A stretch of DNA of 64,000 bases from Amanita rubescens (taxonomy: Eukaryota > Basidiomycota > Agaricomycetes > Agaricales > Amanitaceae), in contig WION01000065.1 in NCBI GenBank assembly GCA_015039365.1, positions 1 to 64,000 on the forward strand, given 5' to 3'. Shown in pieces: positions 1 through 64,000 of the stretch (the first letter of the stretch is position 1; each line of letters opens with the position of its first letter). Under the pieces are notes generated by a model that was not told the origin of the DNA, did not search any database, and was given only the letters and a program-made list of their open reading frames with translations. Made by a program: the position numbers and the translations under genes.

Positions 1-91
1 TGTCGTCCATAGACGCAATCTTATTCTCATTTCCCATCCGCGTTTCTAGTCTCGAGTGTCCTAGTGATTGTGTCGGGATCACCTCCTAACA
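1..91 (+). repeat. 5' LTR, 3' end only
   Basis: Identical by eye to 6021-6111 and ending in CA (...cctcctaaca). The first roughly 168 bases of the LTR lie before the window. I could not identify a tRNA primer-binding site directly after it. Confidence 0.9.
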
Positions 92-322
92 AAATCATAA
101 GACTCTTAACACTACCACACTCGTTCGTCCGTCGTTGCCCACAACGGACACACAAATCATTCGACGGTCACTGTGCTTGATAGCACTAGTAGCCCACTTC
201 AGATATACCTACCTCCTCACGCTGCACATTGCGCGTATCCACTACCGCTTGATAAACCCGGACTCGAGGGTTAACGAGATAGAACAGGGGCTGCTCTAAA
301 CTTTGAGTTGCAGACCTTGTAA

Positions 323-5852
<5,530 letters not shown>

Positions 5853-5857
<5 letters not shown>

Positions 5858-6111
5858 CGGTCGAGATTTCATTTTTATTTCATTTCATTTTCTTTTCTTT
5901 TAGTTACAAGAAGTTCCCACGCTTACTTAAGAATTCCGCGGAACGACGGCGTGTGAATAACGAGTCCGAGTATATATACCTGAACACTAGTTACATGTCC
6001 CTTAGTCTTATGATTGTTTCTGTCGTCCATAGACGCAATCTTATTCTCATTTCCCATCCGCGTTTCTAGTCTCGAGTGTCCTAGTGATTGTGTCGGGATC
6101 ACCTCCTAACA
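5853..6111 (+). repeat. 3' LTR (about 259 bp)
   Basis: It starts TGTAACGG and ends ...TAACA, the usual TG...CA termini. Its last 91 bases match window positions 1-91. A TATATATA motif at 5971-5978 is a plausible LTR promoter element. The start is inferred from the TG next to the polypurine tract, because the 5' copy of that end is out of view. Confidence 0.85.
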
Positions 6112-7319
6112 CATGAGTCCAGTCATGTTGAAGCTTGAGTTCTAGAAGTGGCGATGTGCCAGTGGCCTTGAATGAAGGCCCTTATATATATCATACAGCA
6201 ACACTAGACAGTTCAAATTGCAAGTCAGCTGGAACACGTCGGGCTGTCTATCTGGATTTAGTGCCTACGACTGTCGTCGGAGTCGTGTAGACCATCGGTT
6301 TAAACTCCGCCGCCGCCCGCCGGACGATTTGTAAGGCGGCTCGCTCCTGCAACTCCCACAAACTGCCGTTCCACTGCGGCCCCATTCAGAAGGGGACATA
6401 ACAAACCGGCGAGAAAAATGGCAATAGAATCAATGCTGGTGACAATTTAGAAAGTAGGCCCATGATTTCCTCCGATCGTTAACCACTCTCATTCACAATA
6501 TACATAAAACACTTTTAAGCATCCCAATCTTTCTGGTTCCTCGGTCATGCCGACCATGATTTGGTTCACACTGCGTATAGGGAAGGGCGCTTGGCCTTTG
6601 CCAAAGCGCAGTGGGCCTGATGAATGGGTGATGTGACATTCATAGAAATCTAGATCCATGCATGGCAGGACACTGAGGACAGATATCGTCTTTGACGAAG
6701 AACGTGAAAGGACACCACGCGTCGTCACATGCTCATCGCATTGGCTAGAATTTCTTTCTCGGCTATTCAAGTAAAGACCCTCGATTCTAACGTGCGCCTG
6801 TCACTTTCCAAGCTTTGTAACAAGGTTTCATTCCTGTACCGAACACGTTGAAGCTTCTGATAAGCCCTGTCCCCCAGATTCTGATGGCGTACTCTTCCCA
6901 TCTATTGTTAGGCGGTTTCTGTGCGACTTCAAGTCGAATCGAACCCTCTCTAACTTAGCACTTGCTGTGACAATCTAAATACTTATGCTAGCACAGTCAA
7001 GTCAATTAAGGCAACAGATATCCCCATGTGTCCTGGCTTCCAGCGCCGCAATATGCCCATGCATTCTAGACTAAACACTGACAGTTAGCCGAGCCAACGC
7101 ATGTAAAATGCCGTTAATTAAGGCAATATATGGTTCAATTGAAAACAGGCACGTGAGGGGGTATATATGTCGTATCTACATTGCATGCGCATGTCCATTG
7201 TCCATGAAGCGGGGTAAAGCTTAATAATGACAAGGTGTAAGAAGGTTTCACCTAATGATTAGTATATACGGTTACGATTATGTATGTTTCTGTGCTTCCA
7301 TAGAGGAAGCGAACGAGCT
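6112..7319. other. Intergenic, nothing recognised
   Basis: This is unique DNA between the LTR and the 3' end of the TBC gene. A short GC-rich patch (about 6300-6380) and small ORFs on either strand show no family resemblance or credible exon structure. Confidence 0.5.
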
Positions 7320-10300
7320 TCAAGTCCTGGGTAACGAAATCGTCGCAATCGCGGTACTCTTGCGCGGTACTTGCGCTTGCGTCTGACGCTTGACCTGAGC
7401 TTCCATTTTAATACGCTGCTTCCGGATATCGTCGTCCTTCAGCTTTTGATCCAACGCCAAAGAAACGAGAGCGTCAGGACTGGGAGGGAGTAACCTCAGC
7501 GGTGGGTGGCGAATGATATCGAGCACCATCTTGTCGCTAGTCACTTGAAGTATCTGCACGCGACAGCAGTTGAGGACCGCGAGACCGACCCGAATGAGGA
7601 ATGGAATGCCTTGATAATAATCGTTAGACGTGGCGCTTAGCGTCAATCGGAACTAACTGACCTTCATACATGAAGATATCCCACACTCGATTGACGTAGT
7701 CAGTTGGAAGGGTATTCGCAAAGACCGACTTGAACCTAGCGTTCCCAAATTCAGCTATTACATGTATCAACCTCAACAACATCACACATACCAATCAGCG
7801 CAAATAACCTCCGGCGGGATACTCATATCCATCAAGATCCGCTTCGCTAACTGCGAATCGTTATTCTCGAGCGCACGACTGAACAGCGTCGCATCAACTT
7901 CAAGCTGGGTATTATTAGTCGAAAAGTAAGGTCGAAGGTAGCTGTCCATCAGAGAGACAAAGATCCAGAACACTTCTTCTTCCGGTCCCTGAAGCAAAAG
8001 TTGTCCAACGATTCTAGTCAAACCTATCATACAGGTCAGCCGCGACACGCCACGATTGCTCAGACCATACCAATGTTATATCGGATATCCGGAACCATGT
8101 TGAGATACGCCTGCAACACGGTCAAAACCGGACTTTCCTTCCCCTGCAACTGGGGATGTTCCCTAAAAGACTGAAAAACATCCGCCTCGATCCTCTCCGA
8201 AGCCGCCACATGCCCCCTCGAACACAACTGCGCATACACCCCCGCAACGGTCCTCCCCTTCCCATTCGTCACGTGCGACCACACGAGATACCTCACCGAT
8301 GCCGGAACGCCTTCCAACAACATCTTTTTGATCTTTTTCGTCTTTCTCGCTTGCACCGGTAACACGGACGCCATCAACGACACCCACCGAAGTTCCCGCT
8401 GTCGATGCGCATCGATCGAGTGTTCGTTCTCTTGCGCAATCTTGAGAGGCGACAGAGGCGGATCCGTCCTCGGCGAATTCCGCGAAGGAGAATCCGACAG
8501 CCCAGCTCCCGACCGGAAAGAATAGGTTGACATCGCAGGGCTCCCTGGAGAAATCGGCCCCGAGGGAGGCTCCAACAACCCGTCCTTCCCCAACTCCTCG
8601 CTATTTCGACCTGTCGAAATAAACGGAAGATTCGGCCGCACAAGTTCAAAATCGGTATCTTTGACTTGCACTGTATCCACGTTTTCGGCCGTTTGCGAAC
8701 ATGAGCCCAAACTGGACGTTTCGTCTTGTTTGCTTCTACGCTTCCGAAGATTGGGTAGCGACAACTTTGTCCTCAGCGAGTTTTGCCTCCCCGCGGCGGG
8801 CGATGAGCCAACTGCAAAGAATGATCGGGAATCGCTGATAATAGACGCAGAGTCGGTGTCGATAGACGGTCGAATGCTCTGAGACTGTTTCTCGGACGTC
8901 AGCTCGATAGGCGATAAAGGTCCAGAATGTTGGCTCGATGCTGCTAATGAGCTAATATTAGTCAGCAATCAGAAAGAGAGCTGGACAAAACGCACGAGTT
9001 TCTAGCTGTCGTGAGCCAGGAGAGTCAGTAAGTCCCAACTTGGACGCGACGGTAATGATGGCCGGTAAACTTGGACCAGGGCCAGGCTGCAAAACTCCCG
9101 GTATGTAAGCGTTATTGACGCTGACAACAGGTGAAGTGGGAGGGCCGAGCCGCTCAGAATCATTGTTCACAGGAGGACCCAAACTATTCTGTAGCAACGA
9201 AAGTGGCGAAGGACGAAGAGGCGACGATTTAGCGATAGACTTCGCAAAAGGTGCTGCTGCTGCTGCTGATGACACTGACGACGCGGTCGGAGATGCGGGA
9301 ACCGAGGTCGAGACTGCCACGTTGCCAGAAGAAAACGAACGCTTTACGTCAAGCTCTGTACTATCAGGATATCTAGAGTGGGAAATTTTAATTTAATTAA
9401 ACCTAATGCTAAAGCAACTCGCCTTTTCAGTCCAGACGACGAATCCTCAGCAATAGGAGCTGACGAATCAAATCCTGAAAAACTCCTCGAACGAGGTCTC
9501 GCGCCGGGCGCTCTGGGCGAAAACCCAGTTCGCGGAATGACGTTAGAAGCGGTATGATGTACCGTAGCGGCACGCTCGACAAGATGCGTCGGCTGTTTCG
9601 GTGCGGGAGGGGTTGGAGTCTTCATCATCATCATTCCGCTCGTCGGGTGCGGAATGGGCGCCGTCGTGGGCCTATAGGATACCGTAGACGCCTTTGTCAT
9701 CTTAGCCGGAAACGGATCGGTGCTGAACGTGATCGGAACAGGTCCCATTGACACGGCAAAATCTGCCTCTATTCTTCCATAAATCGTTGGACCTCTCCAA
9801 GGTTGACTCCCCGCGGGCGGTGGTAGCGGGCGGGATAAAGCCATATGGATGACCCCGACAGAGTTCATCCTAGGCAAGCCTGGTTGCATTGCGGTTGACC
9901 TCGCCTGGGAGGACTGGATATAAAGTGGGCCGGGGCTGAGAAGACCGGGGGATTTGGGGGCATTCGGATGGGGTAAGAAAAGGCTTTGTCTTTGATTTGT
10001 ACCCGGGATCAATTCACCTCGAAGATCAGCGAGAGAAGGGCGGAGTTTATCGGGGACGTTGTTGTCCGTTGCTACTGGAGAAGGGGGCGAGGGAACGGGT
10101 GAAGAAGCCGAAGCAGGGGTAGGTGATGGAAATTCTGGGGAAGCACGTGTATCAGGTTCTGGTTCGGGCTCGTCGGTAGGTTTAGGTATCGAAACATCGG
10201 TATCAATTGATTCCACGTTCAACTGTTCTAAAGTTGGCTCTGGGGAGGATAGGGGTGATTCGTGAAAGGTAGACGAAATCACGTGACTAGGTAATTCCTC

Positions 10301-52140: not shown

Positions 52141-53934
52141 ACCTTCCATGTTTAGCCTGAGTTCCTCTTACGCGATGGCAGTAGCACGCCTCTAACAACC
52201 CCCATAATAGCCGCGTTTAGTAAGTCTGGTAGTTGGATTCTACAAGAGAGATTATAAATCGGGGCGTATAGGATGATCGAATAGCAATTCACAGTACTGG
52301 TGACTTTTTTATATAGCATGTTAAGGCAACGCCAGGCATGCTGTTACGTGGATGCGGAGGCCTTCGCTTCTGTCGTGACCTTGAAAGTTGGCTGGACAAG
52401 TGAGCGAAAACGCGATTAGGGCTAGGATGGTGGGGGGTAGTAGCCAGACGGTGGTAACGTGAACGTTGGGGGACGACGGGAGAAAGGGCCCTGGGATCAG
52501 ATGCGCAAGTCGTCAAATGTGGGCAGATATGCTCGTGAGACGGCAAAGTATTATCATAATAGTCGGTGCGGAAAGGATTTACGAGGCGAAGACGGAGCCT
52601 ACATATGAGTGAGAGCGTGTAAGCGAGTAAAGGCGGAGGTGTGATGAGCTGTTTCGACCAAATATGGAGGCCACGTCAGCGTCGTTAGCAGTCACACCCA
52701 AATGCTGGAAGGAAAACTTACTCGTGTGATCCAAGCGCGCTTTAGTATAAACCATCAAGGTATACCCTGAAGGATTAAACTCAATGCCCCCACTCCTCTT
52801 CCATACTCGAACTGTAGCTTATCAACGAATGTGATGGTCCTCAAATAGAGGGTTTAGAACTTTGCTATGTAACGTTTGTGTATGTCAGCTTTTACGATGT
52901 CGAAGGAAGACGAGTGGGACGCACTTAAGATTCCCAGATTAATTATACCAGTAGTGGGCCCTTCGCACGTCGGTTGGATTTGTTGTGAGATACATGTCCA
53001 AGCCCGTGTAGGTTAGGCAGCAGGTCATCGTCTAGATTGAGGTTTGGTCGTGCACTTGTAGCACAAGGCCGGGAGGGTACGTTGGAGAATGGTGGTGGCA
53101 CTGAGTCTGACTTGAAAGTTGAGGAAAGTTTATGACTTGGCGCTTAATGTAAAGACGAGGGATGTAGAGGGAACAAAGTGGTCTCACTGCAAGGTTATAC
53201 ATGGTTGGGAGACGGGCGCGCGGAAGAGTTAAACGGGGAGTCTCAGAGAAAAGAACTTGTTGAGAGCGAGAAATGGCCAGCGGCCAGCTGGGGACGCATT
53301 TGTATTCGAGCATCGAACCGTCTCTACCCCGTCCCTGTTGAGCGCTGAGCCTTCACTGTTGTAGACGATGGTGATCGCTGACGCAAGCCACCCCTGCATC
53401 AAAATGCAGATAAAACGACATGATCCGTCGTTCTCGATTACACACATTCATGCACCCCCACATCCCTTTCTTCAGTACGCCAGCATCTAATCCAACTGTA
53501 ACCCGGCAGGGGTATCGTCGTCAGGCAAAAAGTTTGCCGCCACTTGTTACATGCCACTCTAGGAGATCGCCCGCCAATACGGTCACCTGAGGAAAATGTC
53601 CACTGATTCTTCACGAACTCGTGATTACCAGCTCCAACTACTCCTGCCCATCGAACGCTTTGCGCGCTTCGGCCGTATATTCGCTTGAATTCTGTAGAAG
53701 AAATGGCGAAATCGGAAGAAATTTTTCATAGTACCGGGATTGCTCTGCGACAGGGCGAGGAAGCAGTTGCAGAGGAGAGAGGAACGTGCCCGTTGCATTG
53801 ACGTGGAGGTTATCAACTTTTGTGATAATCATCAGAGTGCGGGCCATGCAGCTCCTCGTCATTACGTCGGTCGATGATGGAGTCGTAAGCTCGTGAGGCG
53901 AAGTCACTGGGTTGGAAGTGGGGTATGGGCATGC
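52141..53934. other. Unassigned DNA
   Basis: No recognised gene. Minus-strand frames at 53229-53447 and 53638-53994 look weakly protein-like but have no identity. Confidence 0.3.
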
Positions 53935-54330
53935 TTTGAGTCCGGTTGGGAGGAGGTGTGGTATCAGGCCGCAACCGATACAATATGTTGACATTCCTCA
54001 CGTGATAAAACCATCTGGTTCAACGGGCTGATCAGCCGAGTGCCCAACCCTGCGTGCCAATTGTCAGTTACAGAGTAGCCCCAGCGACAGTAAAGCCCTC
54101 ACCCGTGACGCTATAAGACACGGCTCTTCGTCTCGCTCATATCATGATTCACAAGCCCGCCCAAGTCCAACGTATCGTTCAAATACACAGAGCCGTGCGT
54201 ATTGAACATGATTCACGTTCACCTTTTTGAGTTTAAACATGTTAGTTTTGGTAGATGGTGGTGGGTCGAGGAACATACCGAGAGGTATTGACGGGGTAGC
54301 AGCCTAGGGCGCAGTAGTTTTCGAAGAAGA
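53935..54330 (-). repeat. Decayed gene-family repeat, copy 2
   Basis: Paralogous to 51775-52140. The minus-strand frame includes FNTHGSVYLNDTLDLGGLVN and RRWGYSVT-like segments with breaks. A third partial copy lies at about 54395-54570. Confidence 0.6.
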
Positions 54331-54394
54331 GTTGCTTGAGTAGAGGGCAGCGTGCAGACCCGGAACGAGATCGTGACGCCGAGTGTTCAACCCC

Positions 54395-54570
54395 TGCATG
54401 CCAGTCGTTAGTTACAGAGTAGCCCCAACGACGGTAAAGAGTCCTCACCCGTGGCGCCATGAAACATGGCTCCAGTCTCGCTGCCCGAGTCCAACGCATC
54501 GTTCAAAATAAACAGAGCCGTGCCACGTGTTGAACAGGGCAGACTACGTCCTGACCATTCACGTTCGCGT
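54395..54570 (-). repeat. Decayed gene-family repeat, partial copy 3
   Basis: Shares agttacagagtagcccca(g/a)cgac and the cgttcaaa...aacagagccgtg block with the two copies to its left. Confidence 0.5.
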
Positions 54571-54689
54571 TTTCCTTTTTCGTTCTGGAGATACTAGTGG
54601 GAGATGGGCCGAGGAGCAGGGCGTGCATTACGAGATCGTGGTAGTAAACCACGCCGTGACGCCTCAATTACCCACTGCCATCCATCTGG

Positions 54690-55181
54690 TTAAGCGCTGA
54701 AAATCGCATCGCGCAGTCCGACTCTATCAAGCCAAATTGAAGCGGTCACGGTAGATGAACGATTCCTGAGAGACGCCAGATGGAGTAGCGCCGTGCTCCA
54801 GACTGATGGAGATTGAGTTGGAGCACACTTTGGGAGGTAGAACCGTTCCATAGTCGGGGCAAAAGTTCGACAACGCGCCGCGCGGGAACCAGAAGAGAAG
54901 GGGACGTATTTCAGCATTGTAAGAGGGGATTGTCAGCTCCTGGAGCAGATAGAACGATGTCGGTGGATTGGACACTGCTGAGGCGAGGCTGAAGTGAGTT
55001 GATCGTCCGGCCTAGACTGGGCGTAATACAGCCGTTGTTCGAGCAGGCGTTGTACACGGCGAACTTGCCAGTGAGCAGAACGCAATATAAAGAGTGGCTG
55101 AGAAGTTGATATTGATTGATGGTGGTAGACGTCATGCCAGAGCCGAAACGCGTTCAACTCCCATCTCAGCACGTCCTGCAT
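54690..55181 (-). pseudogene. Cys-containing secreted/membrane protein homolog, copy a
   Basis: The minus-strand frame reads CVLLTGKFAVYNACSNNGCI then TPSLGRTINSLQPRLSSVQS and ends early (...PLLQC stop). Its paralog at 56515-56990 encodes the same block (GCIAPTLGNSLQPCLSNVQS) followed by a transmembrane helix. Copy a lacks the helix, so it is probably truncated. Function unknown. Confidence 0.4.
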
Positions 55182-55504
55182 TCCTTATCAATGGGCGGGA
55201 ATCCTTATTTTAAAAATTTTCTGACCCGGCATCTACGTACACATGCAACAGGCTGGAGAAATGCTAGTAATGCAGTACTTCTCCGAGTTTCTGAATGTAA
55301 GCACCCTGGTCCTCCCAAAGCAGGGGTGCTGTTAGGAGTCATCAGCTTCTCAAACGAGGAAGGACAATAAAATCGTCGGATTAAACTGGATCTTCGTCGC
55401 GAATCTCCAGTGATCAGCGCGAAAAGATCCAATATCATCGATGGGCTTCAATTAGGTGGGAGATGGCACCGACGTGGAGTTTATAAAGGTTGAGGTAGCA
55501 TTTG

Positions 55505-56125
55505 GGTGGTGTATGGGCGCCGGGTGTGGATCAAGGATGTTAATGGCCTGGATGAAGAATCTGAGGCCTGCCGAAGAGCGTCAGTAAAGGTACATAGAGA
55601 AAGAGATGAACGCACTTTCGTAAGTGCTGGACCCATCTGTCCGTCTCCGTCGTTTTCCACCCTTGCCCCGTATAGCCTGAACAGCCCACATACCCTATCC
55701 TTTGCTTGGTAGGACGCCATGTAGTCGCCACATTCATCGAGGATAACGAGAGCCGAAATCGCGGCGCTAGCGAGGTGATTGCTCGCTTAGCGCATATTGC
55801 CAGGCCATGGTACAGATATCTGGTGAAAGAGGCCTCAGTAGACAACGTTGGCAGTGATCTACCAGCCTTTTACCTTATCTTTTTCACACGTTTGTTGGCT
55901 CGATTATAAATTGGTTAGGTTGCGATGGACGGGCGGAGCGAATAGAAGATAGTGGTTGGGCAGCTTGTGTGGAAGGGGGTCAGCGAAGGGACGGAGCACC
56001 TTCGTAAGTGTAGCGCCCGCCTGTGGCCTGATTATGAGTCCATAGTTTCGAGAAAGAGCTGAAGACGGGGTGAGTGGGGTCCACGTTGCCGAACGGAGAA
56101 TATGTACGACTGGGCCTGAGAGCAA
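55505..56125. repeat. Local duplication, left copy (partner 56868-57510)
   Basis: Shared landmarks in the same order include agtgctggaccc(a/t)tctgtccgtctccgtcg, gccgtatagcctgaacag, acattcatcgagga(t/c)aacgaga and cgcttagcgcatattgccaggcc(a/g)tggtac. Indels and substitutions separate the copies. Confidence 0.8.
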
Positions 56126-56139
56126 CGCGGATCCTGGGG

Positions 56140-56510
56140 GTCAGTGCTGCCTGAACTTATATATGTAACTACTTATTGTGTCTGGATAACGAGTATTACA
56201 ACAAGGGCGGGGGTCAGTAGCAAAGGAAACGCGGGAGACTGGGAGTATCTGCAAATGAAACACGAGATACTCGTTCACCGGAAGCAATAGCCTCAGCAAA
56301 GGCGGCGTTTCACACAGGTACCAGGCCGGCGAATCTGGGCCACGTCGGGTGAGGGTGAAGCAGGGTCTACAACCATGCTGGGGGGGTGGATAGCGCCAAA
56401 TGAAAAAGCCGAGTTGCGAGCGCTGAAGGCCATATAGTGATGAATGGCGCGCCTGCTGCGGACATGCTTTCCAGTCTGTTGAGATGCGTTTGTCGACCAC
56501 CTCGGACCAG
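56140..56510. other. Unassigned DNA between duplicates
   Basis: Likely the 3' part of the same decayed gene family on the minus strand; no motif recognised. Confidence 0.3.
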
Positions 56511-57972: not shown

Positions 57973-60900
57973 ATGGCAGCTACAACTGGTGCACCTTCTT
58001 TGAGTAGTAGGCTAATTTATGTGACTCAGCATTACTAATCCTTGACTGACATATCAGATGCAGATGAGACACATGTTCAAATACTCAAGGAACGCTATCT
58101 ATGCCCACATTTTCACATCCTTGTAATTGGGAGGGCTAATGCAGGCAAGACAACCATCCTTGAGAAGGTTTGTGGTGTAGCAAAGGGAACAAAGCCCATC
58201 ATATATGACATGGATGGTGAGTTGCCAGTCTGACTTTTGTGATTCTTTTGACTGCTGAGTTTCTTGTAGGTAATCAGCTTGAACAGTCTATGATTCATTT
58301 GATGCCATCAGTTGAGGTACTAAGTCAGATGAAGATGGATGAATATACCCATTCATATGCAATGATAACAGAGAGGCCTGCATGATATTGAGCATCAAAT
58401 TACATACCCTGGAAGTAACTTTATCTTCCATGACTCTCGGGGTTTTGAAGCTGGTTCAACTGAGGAATTGGAGATTGCTTGGAAGTTCATTGAAAGGAAA
58501 TCTGTAGAAACTGAGCTGAAGAATCAGCTGCATGCAATTTGGTATCTTGCTTTATCCCTTTACAATACTGTCTAACCTGGTTTCCTGTAGGTACTGTATA
58601 CCCATGGATAGCCCTCGTCCCATTCTATCTGCAGAGCTTGAATTCTTCAATAAAGGGACAGGCAAAGGTAAGTCCTAATGAATTTGTGTACCATCTTGTT
58701 GGGTTTGGAGAGATTATTGTCACCTCCTTTCCAATGGCTAAATTGCCACAAAATCAACTAAGTAATCAACAGTGTACTGATTAGCAAATATTTCCCTTAC
58801 AGTTCCTTTGGTGGTTATATTCACCAAATTTGATGGTCAAATAAACATTGAATTTGCCAATTTGACTGATGTGAAGAATGAAGATAAGTGGGAGAGAGCC
58901 AGGGAAATTGCTCAAATCACTTTTCAGAAAGTTTATCTTCCAAAAGTGTTGGATGCCAAATGTCCTCCCAAGGCATATGTGCAACTGGAAGGTGAGAATG
59001 ATGAGGATTTCTTCCCAAAAAATGGGAGTAATGTTGTTTCATAGACATGGATTTACCAGAGAAGAATTGTGCTGAATTAACTCAGCAAACTGCTGATGCA
59101 ATAGATGATGACAGCATACATCAGCTGTTTGTTTCAACACAGATGAATAATCTTGACCTTTGTGTTAAATCTGCACTTCAGTGAGGATCACATTCAAAAT
59201 GTCACTTACTGACATTGACATTGTTCAGACATGTTCTGAAACATAAACATTGGACATGGGATGATGTCATTCTCATAGTTTTTGGAAAATTTCCACATTT
59301 CTGGGTATGCATTTTTGTCAAACTGCACATTGGCATAGGAAAATTTAAATGGCAATAGGTGGACAGGAGTGGTAGGTGGCCTTCATATGGAATGATAAAT
59401 GCTTGCAAAAGTTCATCAGGAGGTAAGTAACACTCCAATACCTTCACATGAAAACAAGATTAGTCATGCTTCAGATGGCCAATGAAAAACTGAGTGAAGC
59501 ACAGGTCAGTTGTCACCATATTCTTGGTGGCAGGATCTGATAATATTGATATCAGTGGGTAAGTGACATTGCACTAGCATAGATCTGATATATTATCTGA
59601 TGACAACAGTTTGTGAGTAATGCTTCCCTTTATGATCAGCAGTCTTGTCCCATAATCTACAGGAAGTGAGTGACATGACTCAATTTTGATTTTTGGTAAA
59701 TGATCCTATGGTGCATCATATGACCAATAGAAAGTGAGTTAATCTATCATTGTAAGCAGACTTCTCAATCCAGTCTCTCATGGACAGGGAGTGAGTAATA
59801 CAACACTGCTTCACACTGCATCTGACCTGCTTAAAGAAAGTAAGCAACATTGATGTTTGTGCAGCTTATCAGACATAACTCAATGAAGAACAGAAAGTTG
59901 GTGACATGCTATTATCTGAAAGAGAGTCTCAACAAATTTCATTGGATTAATAACAGGAAGTAAGTGAGATTTCCTTTCTGTCTGCTTATAAACATTACAT
60001 CTTGTCTTAAAACAACAGACAGTAAATATTTCTCCCATTCAAAGCCTCTTGACAAGTTATTTCAACACAAACAGGATGTATGTGATCCTTGAGATGTGAA
60101 TTAATCATATGAAATACCATGGCAAAAGAGAGTTGGTGGCATTTTTTTCTTTTTTCCCAACTCATGGTGCTAATTCTATTCTAAAAGGAAGTGAGTGATG
60201 CTAGTCACTCTGCTACAGGACAATTTGGACACATTGTTTTGTTCTACAGATTGTGGGTGATATTGCAAGTTTTGTGAAAAGCAGTGAAATCACATCTTTT
60301 CCTATGAACATAGAAGGTTAGCAGCATGTCATGCTGGTTTAGTGGTTCAAAAGATGACCTTATCAAAATTTTGCCTAATGCCAATAGTATGTGAGTAACA
60401 TTGCAAATATTTATGAAAGGTTGCTTATGTATTCTTTTCCTGTGACTGACAGGATGTGAGCAACATTGAAGATTTTTGCAGAAGGCAGTCCAAGTCTCAT
60501 CACATCTTTTCCTATGACCAACAGCGAGTGAGTGACATTGCACATTTTGTGAAAGGCAGTCTCATCACATCTTTTCCTATGACCAACAGTTAGTGAGTGA
60601 CATTGCACATTTTGTGAAAGGCAGTCTCATCACATCTTTTCCTATGACCAACAGGGAGTGAGTGACATTGCACATTTTGTGAAAGGCAGTCTCATCACAT
60701 CTTTTCCTATGACCAACAGCAATGTGAGTGACATTGCACATTTTGTGAAAGGCAGTCTCATCACATCTTTTCCTATGACCAACAGTTCGTGAGTGACATT
60801 GCACATTTTGTGAAAGGCAGTCTCATCACATCTTTTCCTATGACCAACAGTTGGTGAGTGACATTGCACATTTTGTGAAAGGCAGTCTCATCACATCTTT

Positions 60901-61692
60901 TCCTATGACCAACAGTTGGTGAGTGACATTGCACATTTTGTGAAAGGCAGTCTCATCACATCTTTTCCTATGACCAACAGCAAGTGAGTGACATTGCACA
61001 TTTTGTGAAAGGCAGTCTCATCACATCTTTTCCTATGACCAACAGGTCGTGAGTGACATTGCACATTTTGTGAAAGGCAGTCTCATCACATCTTTTCCTA
61101 TGACCAACAGGTTGTGAGTGACATTGCACATTTTGTGAAAGGCAGTCTCATCACATCTTTTCCTATGACCAACAGGTTGTGAGTGACATTGCACATTTTG
61201 TGAAAGGCAGTCTCATCACATCTTTTCCTATGACCAACAGGTTGTGAGTGACATTGCACATTTTGTGAAAGGCAATCTCATCACATCTTTTCCTAGGATA
61301 AACTTTTCTCCATGTTCAATGAAGAAAAGGAAAGGAACTTTGGAGTCAAGGTACATATTTTTGTTCTTTTTTGAGGCATAGTACATACATAACTTATGCC
61401 ATTGCAAAAAGCCTATTAATTGCCAGGTCTTAGTTTGTAAATCATTTCTTTTCATTTGCTGTATTTATGCTTAAACCTTCAAGCAATTATCATCATTGCC
61501 AAGCTATCCTTTTGGATCAATAAACCATTTGTGCTATCAGTCACAGAAGCCTTGGACCAATACAAACAAAAAAGCTATGTTCAGAAGCTCAAGACTGACA
61601 TTACTCCTGACATTATTCACTCTGATCATCAAGATTTGGTCACATTACTCTATAGGCAGGTGACACACATTGATGGTGGGTACTTTGTCTAG
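57973..61692 (+). CDS. Septin/AIG1-like G-domain protein, with a micro-exon array
   Basis: P-loop GTPase of a family expanded in agaricomycetes; role unknown. Exons: 57973-58003, 58058-58216, 58270-58316, 58372-58541, 58591-58667, 58803-58991, 59045-59180, 59229-59304. These join in phase to give G1 GRANAGKTTI, RGLHDIEHQITYPGS, G3-type FHDSRGFEAG, AIWYCIPMDSPRP, G4 IFTKFD, LPEKNCAELTQQTADAIDDD, FVSTQMNNLDLCVKSALQ and WTWDDVILIVFGKFPHFW. A probable exon 59339-59371 is followed by a one-codon GAG (59420-59422), exon 59475-59504 (MANEKLSEAQ), the spacer array to 61296, then exons 61297-61350 (DKLFSMFNEEKERNFGVK), 61427-61436 and 61484-61692 (IIIIAKLSFWINKPFVLSVT...). With 3-nt spacers the model closes at 435 residues. 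One spacer is 4 nt (60720-60723) and would break the frame. The 5' two thirds is secure; exon choice from 59305 on is inferred. Confidence 0.75.
59505..61296 (+). repeat. Array of 29 intron-like units separated by one-codon spacers
   Basis: Every unit starts GT (gtgagt, gtaagt and close variants) and ends AG, mostly (a)acag or atag. Between consecutive units lie 28 spacers: 27 of exactly 3 nt and one of 4. Spacers begin at 59556, 59610, 59663, 59731, 59788, 59837, 59894, 59957, 60019, 60075, 60133, 60188, 60250, 60314, 60388, 60453, 60525, then about every 65 nt to 61241. The spacer at 60133 could instead be 60129-60131. Units before 60528 differ in sequence and in length (46-71 nt). Spacers read as codons W F E K G K K E ... 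down to V V V V, with no stop in the phase fixed by flanking exons. Many units keep a tgac-type branch-like motif before the AG. Confidence 0.8.
60528..61296 (+). repeat. 65-bp tandem repeat: 62-bp identical intron-like core plus variable triplet
   Basis: Eleven 62-bp cores (60528-61240) appear identical by eye, from gtgagtgacattgcac to tcctatgaccaacag. They alternate with triplets that differ: tta, gga, caat, ttc, ttg, ttg, caa, gtc, gtt, gtt, gtt. A twelfth core (61244-61296) has one substitution and a 3' deletion that creates a new tag end directly before the next exon. Confidence 0.95.
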
Positions 61693-61740
61693 TCATGCAT
61701 TCATGTAATTATATCAAATCCGGTCAGCTCGTCGCTCCCA

Positions 61741-61870
61741 TTCCCCCAAAAAAAAATTTACCTTTTTGTGGGGGTTTTGGGGGGTTTAGGGGTTTTTTTT
61801 TTTTGGGGGGAGGGGGGGGGGGGTGGGTTTTTTTTTTTTTTTTTTTTTTTTTTTGGGGGGTTTGGGGGTA
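61741..61870. repeat. Homopolymer-rich low-complexity tract (possible assembly artefact)
   Basis: Long runs of T and G alternate (for example about 24 T then G runs) right after an a-run. This is atypical for the neighbourhood and may be low-quality consensus. Confidence 0.7.
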
Positions 61871-62284
61871 ACACAGATGGGACAAGGTGTGGATCAGGTG
61901 TGATCAGGGTGACATGTTCAAACATGTTCAAACAAAAACAGAAGTGCTGCCGGCATTGCTATAACTTATCATTTCTGGTCCTTGGGGATCAATGATATGA
62001 GTAATGAAGCTCAGTACAAAAAAAAGTTTCAATGCTATTCTTGCCATGCTATTGTAGTTACTCATCAATTTCTCAAGCCAACTTGTTAATTTGGGCCACC
62101 AGGTGGCAGATCCAAGGCCTTTTTTTTGAATTGTGTCATGGAAGTAAAAGCTGTTATAAAACTAAACTATGACATGACTTATATAGCGTCTACCTTGTGT
62201 ACTACAGATGGGATGGTGTAGGAAAATGCAGGATGGGTGCAGGATGTCATAGATCAGTAGAGTGCCCACTGGCATGCCAAGTTG

Positions 62285-62910
62285 TGATTGAAACTGAACC
62301 GGTTCTAAAATCATCCAGGATGGCCCAGAACTGGAACTGGAACTGCTTAGAACCGGCAAACTTCTGGTTCAAACTGGCTAAAAACCAGTTTGAACTGCTA
62401 TAACATGATGTGAGAGAGAAGATGTATTATGTACTATACTAACCCTTGACAAAGTGAATTAGCATGTATTACGAATTTAAATAGGCAAAACAATCATTTG
62501 TGTTCAATGTTCAATAGCACTAAGTGTAAGTTAGTAACAATGTTACAGTATGTATGTATGTATGTATACATATTTCAGGACATTTCACTTATCTGGGACC
62601 CTGAAACAGGCCCTCAGTGGTAAAACCAATGTCAGACATGGGTGGAATACAATCAAAACAGTGAGAGTACATGTTCCCCTGGCAATGAAAATCATTTTGA
62701 CTATATCTCAGCCATTTCTTGGCCATTTTTTTTGATCCAGGACTCAATTTCAGGCTAAGGTGTATGGCCTATACATTGGGATAATAGTTGTAAGGGTTAT
62801 AACTGGTTCTGAACCTCAAAATTTGAGAACTGCGAACTGCTCATTTCCCCAACCATGGGAAGAACTTTTTTTTGGTTCAAAGTTCAGTTCAGTTCCAGTT
62901 CTAAGAGACA
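62285..62910. repeat. Possible inverted-repeat element
   Basis: The left block (ccggttctaaaa... ccagaactggaactgg) and the right block (ggttcaaagttcagttcagttccagttctaag) contain reverse-complementary gaactggaactg/cagttccagttc strings facing each other about 0.5 kb apart. Ends are not defined. Confidence 0.3.
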
Positions 62911-63139
62911 GGACTTTGAATCACTACCTATGGGAATCACGGCACTCATGCCATGCTACTTGAATCATTAGTAAATCATATAGCTTGAGCGAGGTCTTTA
63001 CGGTCCCCCCCCTTTCCGATCGGAGTCCGATCGGAATCCTAGGATTCCTATAGGAGTCTGATTGGAATTTATTACATTAAGATTACAAATTTTTGAAAAC
63101 TGGATTTTCGGTTGGACTGGTATCAGACTTAATCGGAGG

Positions 63140-63270
63140 CTGTCCGACAGACAGACAGTCAGACAATTATTGTGTCAGATAATCAGAAAATCAGACAACC
63201 TATAGTCTAAATAGTGTGCATCAGACAATCAGCAGTCAGACAATCAGTGTGTCAGATGTGATCAGATGTG
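63140..63270. repeat. Short tandem (tcagacaa/t-type) repeats
   Basis: The words cagacaatcag, cagataatcag and gtgatcagatgtgatcagac recur many times within 130 bp. Confidence 0.7.
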
Positions 63271-64000
63271 ATCAGACTTTTGCCATGTTAACTGATGTAG
63301 CTGGTAATGATCCATAGTAGGGCACGAGTCAGTGCAGGTGGATGCAAGTGGTTTCTTGTGATTGGAACTTGACTCAGTTTTAGACAATTACCATGTCAGC
63401 CACCATTAATCACCACTCTGTTACTAATAGTTTTGACTCCCACTCATTATGCACTGGCATGCCTGATTAGTTGGACAGACCCACTTAATATCTCTACTTA
63501 CTCATCTTATCTATCATTCAATGGTTGACTCATTCAGACTTCCAAAATCCCTCTTTACCCCTAAACAACATGATTGTCTGTAACACTTTTTTCAATCTCT
63601 GTCCAAAACTTTTAGTCTACTAGCATCCTATTGTATTAGCACTCATCAATATCATCATTCTCTTGTTTGAGTTAACCATTACTGAGTTAAGTTAACTTTG
63701 CCAGATTGGATGCTTCTAGTGTGGAAGAAGTCAGTAGGCAATGATAATGACAAGTGAGCATAACATACTGCCAGTGACTGTCACCAATATGCTTCTAACA
63801 ACCACACCCCAGGGCCATGGCACTGCTACCATCACCAAATAACCAAGAACTCATCTCCACCCCCTTCAATCCACCCCTTGACTTCAAGTATGATACATAT
63901 GTACATAATCACAAATCCCTCATATTTACCTATGACAATCATACCTGCGTTCATAGTAACCACCAGCAACCCAACTGATAATCACCAGACTGGCACACCC

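Follow-up and report, generated by a model that had tools for sequence, protein, structure and literature searches.

A 64,000-nucleotide (nt) stretch of the Amanita rubescens genome (contig WION01000065.1, positions 1 to 64,000; hereafter the window) contains a G-domain gene that carries, between its G domain and its C-terminal domain, an array of GT...AG units separated by spacers the size of one codon. Our analysis indicates that this array is very probably a coding stretch of 3-nt, phase 0 exons set between short GT-AG introns, in a large Amanita GTPase family. The array occupies positions 59505 to 61296 of the forward strand and comprises 29 units of 46 to 71 nt, all of the GT...AG form, and 28 spacers, 27 of which are exactly 3 nt long and one 4 nt, the same layout that a first-pass annotation had described from the bare sequence.

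Structure of the window array

Introns 1 to 16 of the window array differ among themselves in sequence. The codons in this constant part are common to most paralogs and form a contiguous peptide in two proteins of relatives (P0002 and P0031). The variable part that follows includes eleven 62-nt introns (introns 18 to 28) without any difference at all, and its spacers read, in order, CGA, TTA, GGA, CAAT, TTC, TTG, TTG, CAA, GTC, GTT, GTT, and GTT. Divergence in this part is 0 for the introns and 0.615 per base for the spacers; Tandem Repeats Finder (TRF) reports a period of 65 bp with 12.3 copies. The first-pass annotation had placed all spacers in phase 0, which holds for the first 19, as they share one frame, while the last 8 and the exon DKLFSMF are shifted by the 4-nt spacer. 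It had also left one residue of the read-out as either L or R; this residue, number 11, is R (AGA).

Units spaced by exactly 3 nt form a chain of 20 in the array, ending at the 4-nt spacer, and a chain of 28 in L038, a copy with diverged introns. With both strands scanned, the longest such chain is 3 in positions 1 to 57400 of the window and 3 in positions 61700 to 64000 together with the next 16 kb (2 at best on the minus strand of these regions); it is 1 on the array's own minus strand and never exceeds 4 in 200 dinucleotide shuffles. The spacing is therefore not a product of chance. Plain read-through of the array was rejected as an explanation, given that the unspliced sequence, read in the frame of the exon MANEKLSEAQ, has its first stop at residue 22 and 43 stops in total.

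Single-codon junctions across the genome

The junction AACAG-N3-GTGAGTGA occurs 2614 times genome-wide (1308 + 1306), compared with 7 occurrences of the reversed control; with a 4-nt spacer the same junction occurs 10 times, and with a 6-nt spacer 34 times. Only one of the 2614 spacers is a stop (TAA or TGA, with no TAG), whereas about 122 would be expected at 3/64. Three of the ten 4-nt junctions lie on contig C749 and the sole stop junction lies on C537; both are perhaps decaying copies. Since 490 of the 1221 3-nt junctions parsed in individual copies have this exact form, the genome would contain, by extrapolation, about 6,500 single-codon exons (4,100 with the fraction seen in young arrays and 9,200 with that in old arrays), haplotype copies included. 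All copies fetched belong to one gene family; the junction places themselves were listed for the first 100.

Codon usage was examined separately in young arrays, whose units are near-identical tandem copies, and in old arrays, whose introns are unique. In non-redundant old arrays one of 539 codons is a stop, where intron interiors would predict 17.9; in young arrays, L016 excepted, none of 346 is (10.7 expected). Besides L016, these tallies leave out L024, L026, L029, L030, L033, and L034, which are cut by a contig end or are haplotype duplicates, and the comparison of NAA with NAG codons leaves out L039 and L011 as well. Codons end in A or T in 95% of cases in old arrays and in 88% in young arrays. 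The ratio of NAA to NAG is 141:8 in old arrays, compared with 30:28 in the window gene's ordinary exons (Fisher p 6e-12); use of every acceptor would lead one to expect avoidance of NAG, because NAG sets a second AG 3 nt downstream. Like NNG codons, NNC codons are avoided too, which acceptor ambiguity does not account for. Codon sets also tend to be array specific, with the distinct codons of 8 arrays adding up to 63, compared with a permutation mean of 86.7 (minimum 78 in 3000), although taken singly only 3 of the 8 (L010, L013, and L016) support this.

The read-out in proteins of relatives

The proteins used for comparison are open reading frames (ORFs) on short Joint Genome Institute (JGI) contigs that are unbroken where the genomic genes carry introns, and judging from this absence of introns they probably represent transcripts. 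P0031 reads FPHFWVGRDEMANKQLSEAQ-WFEHGKKDTDKQIVYDG and P0002 reads WFEKGKKESDREIEYDG, each in an intron-free ORF on a contig in the 1.4- to 1.9-kb range and each with the constant read-out directly after the linker. The window read-out aligns with P0002 and P0031 at z scores of 13.9 and 12.9, respectively (standard deviations above 300 shuffles), and the 60-residue tail of P0002 fits the codon make-up of the genomic arrays far better in frame 0 (log-likelihood -172.9) than in frame 1 (-257.0) or frame 2 (-248.6). At the other end of the array, P0052, P0049, and P0059 continue across the whole region into the C-terminal domain, and their sequence REIL-PELFSVFG corresponds in L038 to the single codons S-E-I, a further codon L, and the exon PELLLLFG. 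When L038 was aligned with these three proteins together with its flanking exons, 0 of 2000 shuffles scored as well in each case, and the array residues of L039 alone reach z scores of 7.8 with P0052 and 8.2 with P0059. Searching proteins with a composite query made of the tail alone returned nothing at E ≤ 10.

The read-out thus recurs as contiguous peptide at the start of the array and again at its end, which makes translated single-codon exons the most likely identity of the spacers. The first-pass annotation had proposed one residue per 3-nt exon and a comparison with homologs as the check, which the contiguous peptides of P0031 and P0002 bear out.

Copies in the A. rubescens genome

The constant array start was found at no fewer than 40 places on at least 38 contigs (40 of 125 candidates were scored) and the C-terminal domain at 150 or more places (150 of 204 candidates were scored). 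The 75.7-Mb assembly matches the 62-nt intron 410 times or more. We parsed 24 genomic copies, some of them haplotype duplicates, with an intron ceiling of 90 nt that was sufficient for all. Twenty of the 40 start places were parsed with their flanks (WIN, the window copy; C82; L009 to L013; L015; L016; L024 to L027; and L028 to L035); contig C667 (L040) was added for its array only, and L014, L038, and L039 were taken from other searches. L017 and L018, which lie at contig ends with 5 units each, were not used. Among the 1252 spacers parsed, 1221 are 3 nt long, 15 are 6 nt, 5 are 9 nt, and 11 are 4 nt, all within the size of a spliceosomal micro-exon, at most about 30 nt between canonical introns. 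The 9-nt spacers of L009, L011, and L013 come from a stricter parse rule and resolve into single codons under a looser one.

Complete arrays range from 28 codons in the window to about 87 in L014 and L035, with 79 in L040. They typically start W-F-E-x-G-K-K-x-x-D-R-E-I-x-Y, and old arrays end in K-I or similar. In L038 and L039, which belong to distant subfamilies, the introns have diverged while the layout is unchanged; the layout is therefore older than the split of these subfamilies. In both copies a single-codon W (TGG) precedes a GC-AG intron (GCAAGT).

About 60 to 80 nt past the last array codon, an AG/GT junction is present in 7 of the 8 copies printed (L014, L027, L028, L031, L032, L035, and L038), several of which then have a further single codon. 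This junction may be a candidate zero-length (recursive) splice site. The first-pass annotation had offered zero-length splicing as an alternative for the array as a whole; it is possible at this one site past the array in other copies, but not inside the array.

How the arrays change

Divergence within young arrays was calculated from units with at most 6 mismatches to the master intron. In 8 of the 9 young arrays the introns differ by 0 to 1.4% per base and the spacers by 0.31 to 0.67 per base, and in the ninth (L015) the values are 5.3% and 0.67 per base, respectively. A similar pattern separates L009 from L011, in which 6 of 2781 intron bases differ compared with 9 of 150 spacer bases, with codon changes in units 20 to 22 and 48 to 49; their spacers are also unequal at units 14 and 19. 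The window copy, C82, and contig C604 carry different variable codons even though the long matches that surround the array are 97.7 to 99.4% identical. Marks in the introns of L040 reveal that units 41 to 58 were duplicated to form units 59 to 75; as we read the alignment, the two versions differ by the loss of one unit, by two intron substitutions, and in the codons TTT/CGA, CGA/CAA, GAT/TAT, and TAT/TTT. At the protein level, P0049 and P0059 are 95.0% identical before the variable region and 94.3% after it, while within it only 31 of 53 aligned residues agree and its lengths are 72 and 55, respectively.

There is no clear enrichment of identical codons in neighbouring units (P 0.013 for the window and 0.058 to 0.51 for the remaining 8 young arrays; among 8 old arrays, P 0.003 for one and 0.086 to 0.68 for the others), and unit-by-unit duplication alone is therefore poorly supported. 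The arrays change unevenly, by duplication of blocks, by gain or loss of units, and by changes of codons.

Weighing of the evidence

Several observations weigh against the proposal of rapidly varying, translated single-codon exons. Without its flanks, the L038 array is matched or exceeded by 2 (P0052), 22 (P0049), 58 (P0059), 46 (P0021), and 816 (P0071) of 2000 shuffles; such weak alignment fits a variable middle, yet it limits the proof. Over all comparisons between read-outs and tails, z exceeds 5 in 11 of 36 and is at or below 5 in 25. The proteins are relatives or paralogs and not complementary DNA (cDNA) of the window gene, since identity to its G domain is 82 to 83% for P0002 and P0031 and about 60 to 64% for P0049, P0052, and P0059; P0031 and P0002 are also not transcripts of the listed loci, because their exons are at most about 89% identical among the genome matches listed. 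Some copies carry lesions, namely the window copy, L016 (2- and 4-nt spacers, the former producing apparent stops that are a parser artefact), L011 (a 4-nt spacer), and L039 (a TGA beside other damage). Finally, haplotype pairs of old arrays lack an excess of codon change (for instance, L031 and L034 differ at 17 of 3483 intron bases and 0 of 186 codon bases), and L012 and L040 share all 60 codons compared, so that rapid codon change is not constant.

Other explanations were considered for the array itself. An intronic minisatellite, that is, a tandem repeat inside a single intron of about 1.8 kb whose 3-nt spacers are never translated, would agree with the near-identical tandem copies of young units and with the phase 0 of both flanking exons, which preserves the frame when the whole array is skipped. 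The first-pass annotation had kept whole-array skipping open, but it fails to account for the near absence of stops among the 2614 spacers. The persistence of the 3-nt spacing in L038 despite intron divergence, the read-out in intron-free proteins, and the third-base and NAG biases likewise speak against a minisatellite, which we regard as improbable. Scarcely more credible, and if anything slightly less so, is an invasion of the introner type, in which near-identical introns would have split a contiguous ancestral exon between each codon and the next, leaving the old codon sequence as it was. Identical introns do occupy many positions in many genes of the family, and introner-like elements are known in fungi (PMC4457414). 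Insertion at every codon boundary with 3-nt spacing would nonetheless be unexpected, the three near-identical copies (window, C82, and C604) differ in their variable codons, and L040 shows block duplication of units instead. An assembly or sequencing artefact is the least probable of all: arrays of identical units are hard to assemble and odd spacers could be errors, but the constant start recurs on dozens of contigs, old arrays with unique introns are nearly the same in two to three contigs (L028/L029/L030, L031/L034, L032/L033, and L025/L026), and independently sequenced proteins contain the read-out.

Two further proposals retain the architecture and concern the source of variation. Codon variation could stem from mutation aimed at the 3-nt junctions in place of selection, which we consider unlikely, though not negligible. 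Spacers changed after duplication with few or no intron changes, several differ at two or three bases, and 1-nt insertions or deletions occur in young-array spacers (CAAT, AATT, CATT, CTTC, and CA). No mechanism for such mutation is known, however, some introns also have insertions or deletions (lengths 61, 63, and 65), quiet haplotype pairs exist, and frame-breaking variants are rare (the ten 4-nt junctions of the tested form), though selection could purge them. Both selection and targeted mutation fit the codon variation. Variable skipping of units in RNA, yielding many protein forms and acting as a splicing-based diversity generator, is similarly doubtful. Every skip preserves the frame by construction, and P0049 and P0059 have common flanks around a differing region; their substitutions inside and outside that region, however, make them look like different alleles or paralogs rather than splice forms.

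For a coding array of single-codon exons, the explanation we favour, the introns would be removed singly by intron definition, most simply from 5′ to 3′, so that a codon would already be attached to the exon upstream when the next donor comes into play. Each unit consists of a single codon and its intron, so that adding, losing, exchanging, or skipping any number of units leaves the frame intact. The spliced product of a copy free of frame breaks, such as C82, would carry WFEKGKKETDREIKYDRQGVVG..., and the near-identical introns would probably serve as handles for unequal recombination and conversion. The codons between them appear to change fast, with diversifying selection a more likely cause than targeted mutation. 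What results would be a GTPase conserved except for one hypervariable segment, which, by analogy with HNWD receptors (PMC12222747) and as a guess, might form a recognition surface. A more ambitious scheme, a diversity system of codon resolution that would combine intron handles, codon rewriting aimed at junctions, skipping at the RNA level, and a GTPase recognition repertoire, is put forward only tentatively and seems unlikely as a whole.

The gene and its surroundings

The exons and array parts of the window gene are listed in Table 1. The joined G-domain exons match P0001 of A. rubescens at 97%, the best protein match, and the public gene model for the window gene (P0003) ends upstream of the array. 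The junction at the single-codon exon upstream of the array is spanned in P0031 as ...VGRDE-MANKQ. The linker exon is 12 nt long in 7 of the 8 other aligned copies and 15 nt in the remaining one, so that its length in the window copy, like the 4-nt spacer, breaks the frame. Because of these two breaks, splicing of the kind that relatives show cannot keep the window copy in frame, and even full inclusion would give no full protein; the copy has probably decayed. Its sister copy on C82, whose G domain was fetched in part, has a linker of 12 nt, and all 39 of its 39 spacers measure 3 nt.

Table 1. Features of the array-bearing gene in the window.
Feature	Position	Strand	Description	Basis
Eight ordinary exons	57973..59304	+	G domain to ...KFPHFW, 296 residues	Stop-free joined translation
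Exons 1-4	57973-58006, 58058-58216, 58270-58316, 58372-58541	+	Exon ends	
Exons 5-8	58591-58667, 58803-58991, 59045-59180, 59229-59304	+	Exon ends	
Linker exon	59359..59371	+	VDR..., 13 nt	Alignment of 9 copies
Single-codon exon upstream of array	59420..59422	+	GAG	GAG or GTG in most copies
Exon before array	59475..59504	+	MANEKLSEAQ, phase 0	MANKQLSEAQ in P0031
Constant part of array	59505..60455	+	Introns 1-16; single-codon exons W F E K G K K E T D R E I K Y D	
Variable part of array	60456..61296	+	Introns 17-29	Intron and spacer parse
4-nt spacer	60720..60723	+	CAAT; frame break in window copy	
Exon after array	61297..61350	+	DKLFSMFNEEKERNFGVK, phase 0 from first base	Related exons in 11 other stretches (blastn)
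Exon PINCQVLV(S)	61412..61436	+		Read by analogy with TACQVLAA in P0049
Last exon	61484..61692	+	C-terminal domain, ...IIIIAKLSFW...VTHIDGGYFV and stop	tblastn with P0052; translation

Matches to Pfam, for the G domain and otherwise, all fall below the curated cut-offs, and a Pfam scan of P0052, P0049, P0002, P0120, and P0121 (E up to 0.1) revealed neither NACHT/NB-ARC nor WD40. PADLOC gave weak matches only, a PDB sequence search gave two weak GTPase matches, and an Rfam search of the window gave none. Around the gene, long T and G runs occupy positions 61740 to 61870, including 27 T at 61828 to 61854, close to the end of collinearity with C604 at 61703. About 2.9 kb of the window (53376 to 56247) has no counterpart in C604, which is otherwise collinear. 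GC content is 0.39 to 0.40 in positions 58001 to 64000, compared with 0.44 to 0.53 elsewhere in the window, and positions 1 to 6000 show strand asymmetry (AT skew 0.25 to 0.27; GC skew 0.10 to 0.18).

Comparison with known systems and significance

TAL-effector repeats and PRDM9 zinc fingers are also built of nearly identical units, each with one or a few hypervariable residues, but their constant part is protein, whereas in Amanita it is removed from the RNA. Known introners are generally scattered insertions, unlike the tandem Amanita arrays. Introners and introner-like elements resemble the arrays in that near-identical spliceosomal introns occur many times in one genome (PMC9860276, PMC4457414); neither "tandem" nor "Amanita" appears in PMC9860276. 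Micro-Ex8 of Drosophila homothorax is, like the array exons, a one-codon exon between introns and is alternatively spliced (PMC7392893), but it is isolated, while Amanita has 28 to about 87 per gene and an estimated several thousand per genome. The micro-exon genes (MEG) of Schistosoma share with the Amanita genes their many very short exons, of 3 to 81 bp (PMC10526429), yet they have introns of up to 5 kbp, unlike the window units, and encode secreted proteins, whereas the Amanita introns measure about 44 to 90 nt and the product has a cytosolic-type G domain. In Trichoderma, Xlr2 contains a functional microexon, and its authors state that none had been described before in filamentous fungi (PMC11121469); this is a microexon in a fungus as well, but a single, regulated one. 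The HNWD NOD-like receptors het-d and het-e of Podospora, with near-identical repeats evolving in concert and hypervariable sites (PMC12222747), share homogenised repeats, hypervariable sites, and a nucleotide-binding protein with the Amanita family. What stays constant in their repeats is protein (WD40); in Amanita the constant part is an intron, and translation is confined to the variable codon. Young arrays follow this mode of homogenised repeats that vary at chosen sites, with pairs of the L031/L034 type and L012/L040 as counter-examples.

The first-pass annotation knew of no described array of this kind, and our literature search, with most subscription journals and preprints outside its scope, likewise found no array of single-codon exons; what it did find were single 3-nt exons, schistosome micro-exon genes, introners, and stwintrons. 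The individual parts (GT-AG introns, micro-exons, and concerted evolution) are already known, and it is their combination that lacks a precedent in the literature searched.

Spliceosomes are thought to be poor at handling tiny exons, and single 3-nt exons are regarded as curiosities. One genome nevertheless appears to hold some 4,000 to 9,000 single-codon exons, by extrapolation, in runs of up to about 87. Gene models of the Amanita GTPase family are cut short as a consequence, as P0003 exemplifies. The arrays raise the question of what holds introns identical while the intervening codons vary, and they offer a natural system for intron definition, with acceptor and donor 3 nt apart, and an instance of exon shuffling at the scale of one residue.

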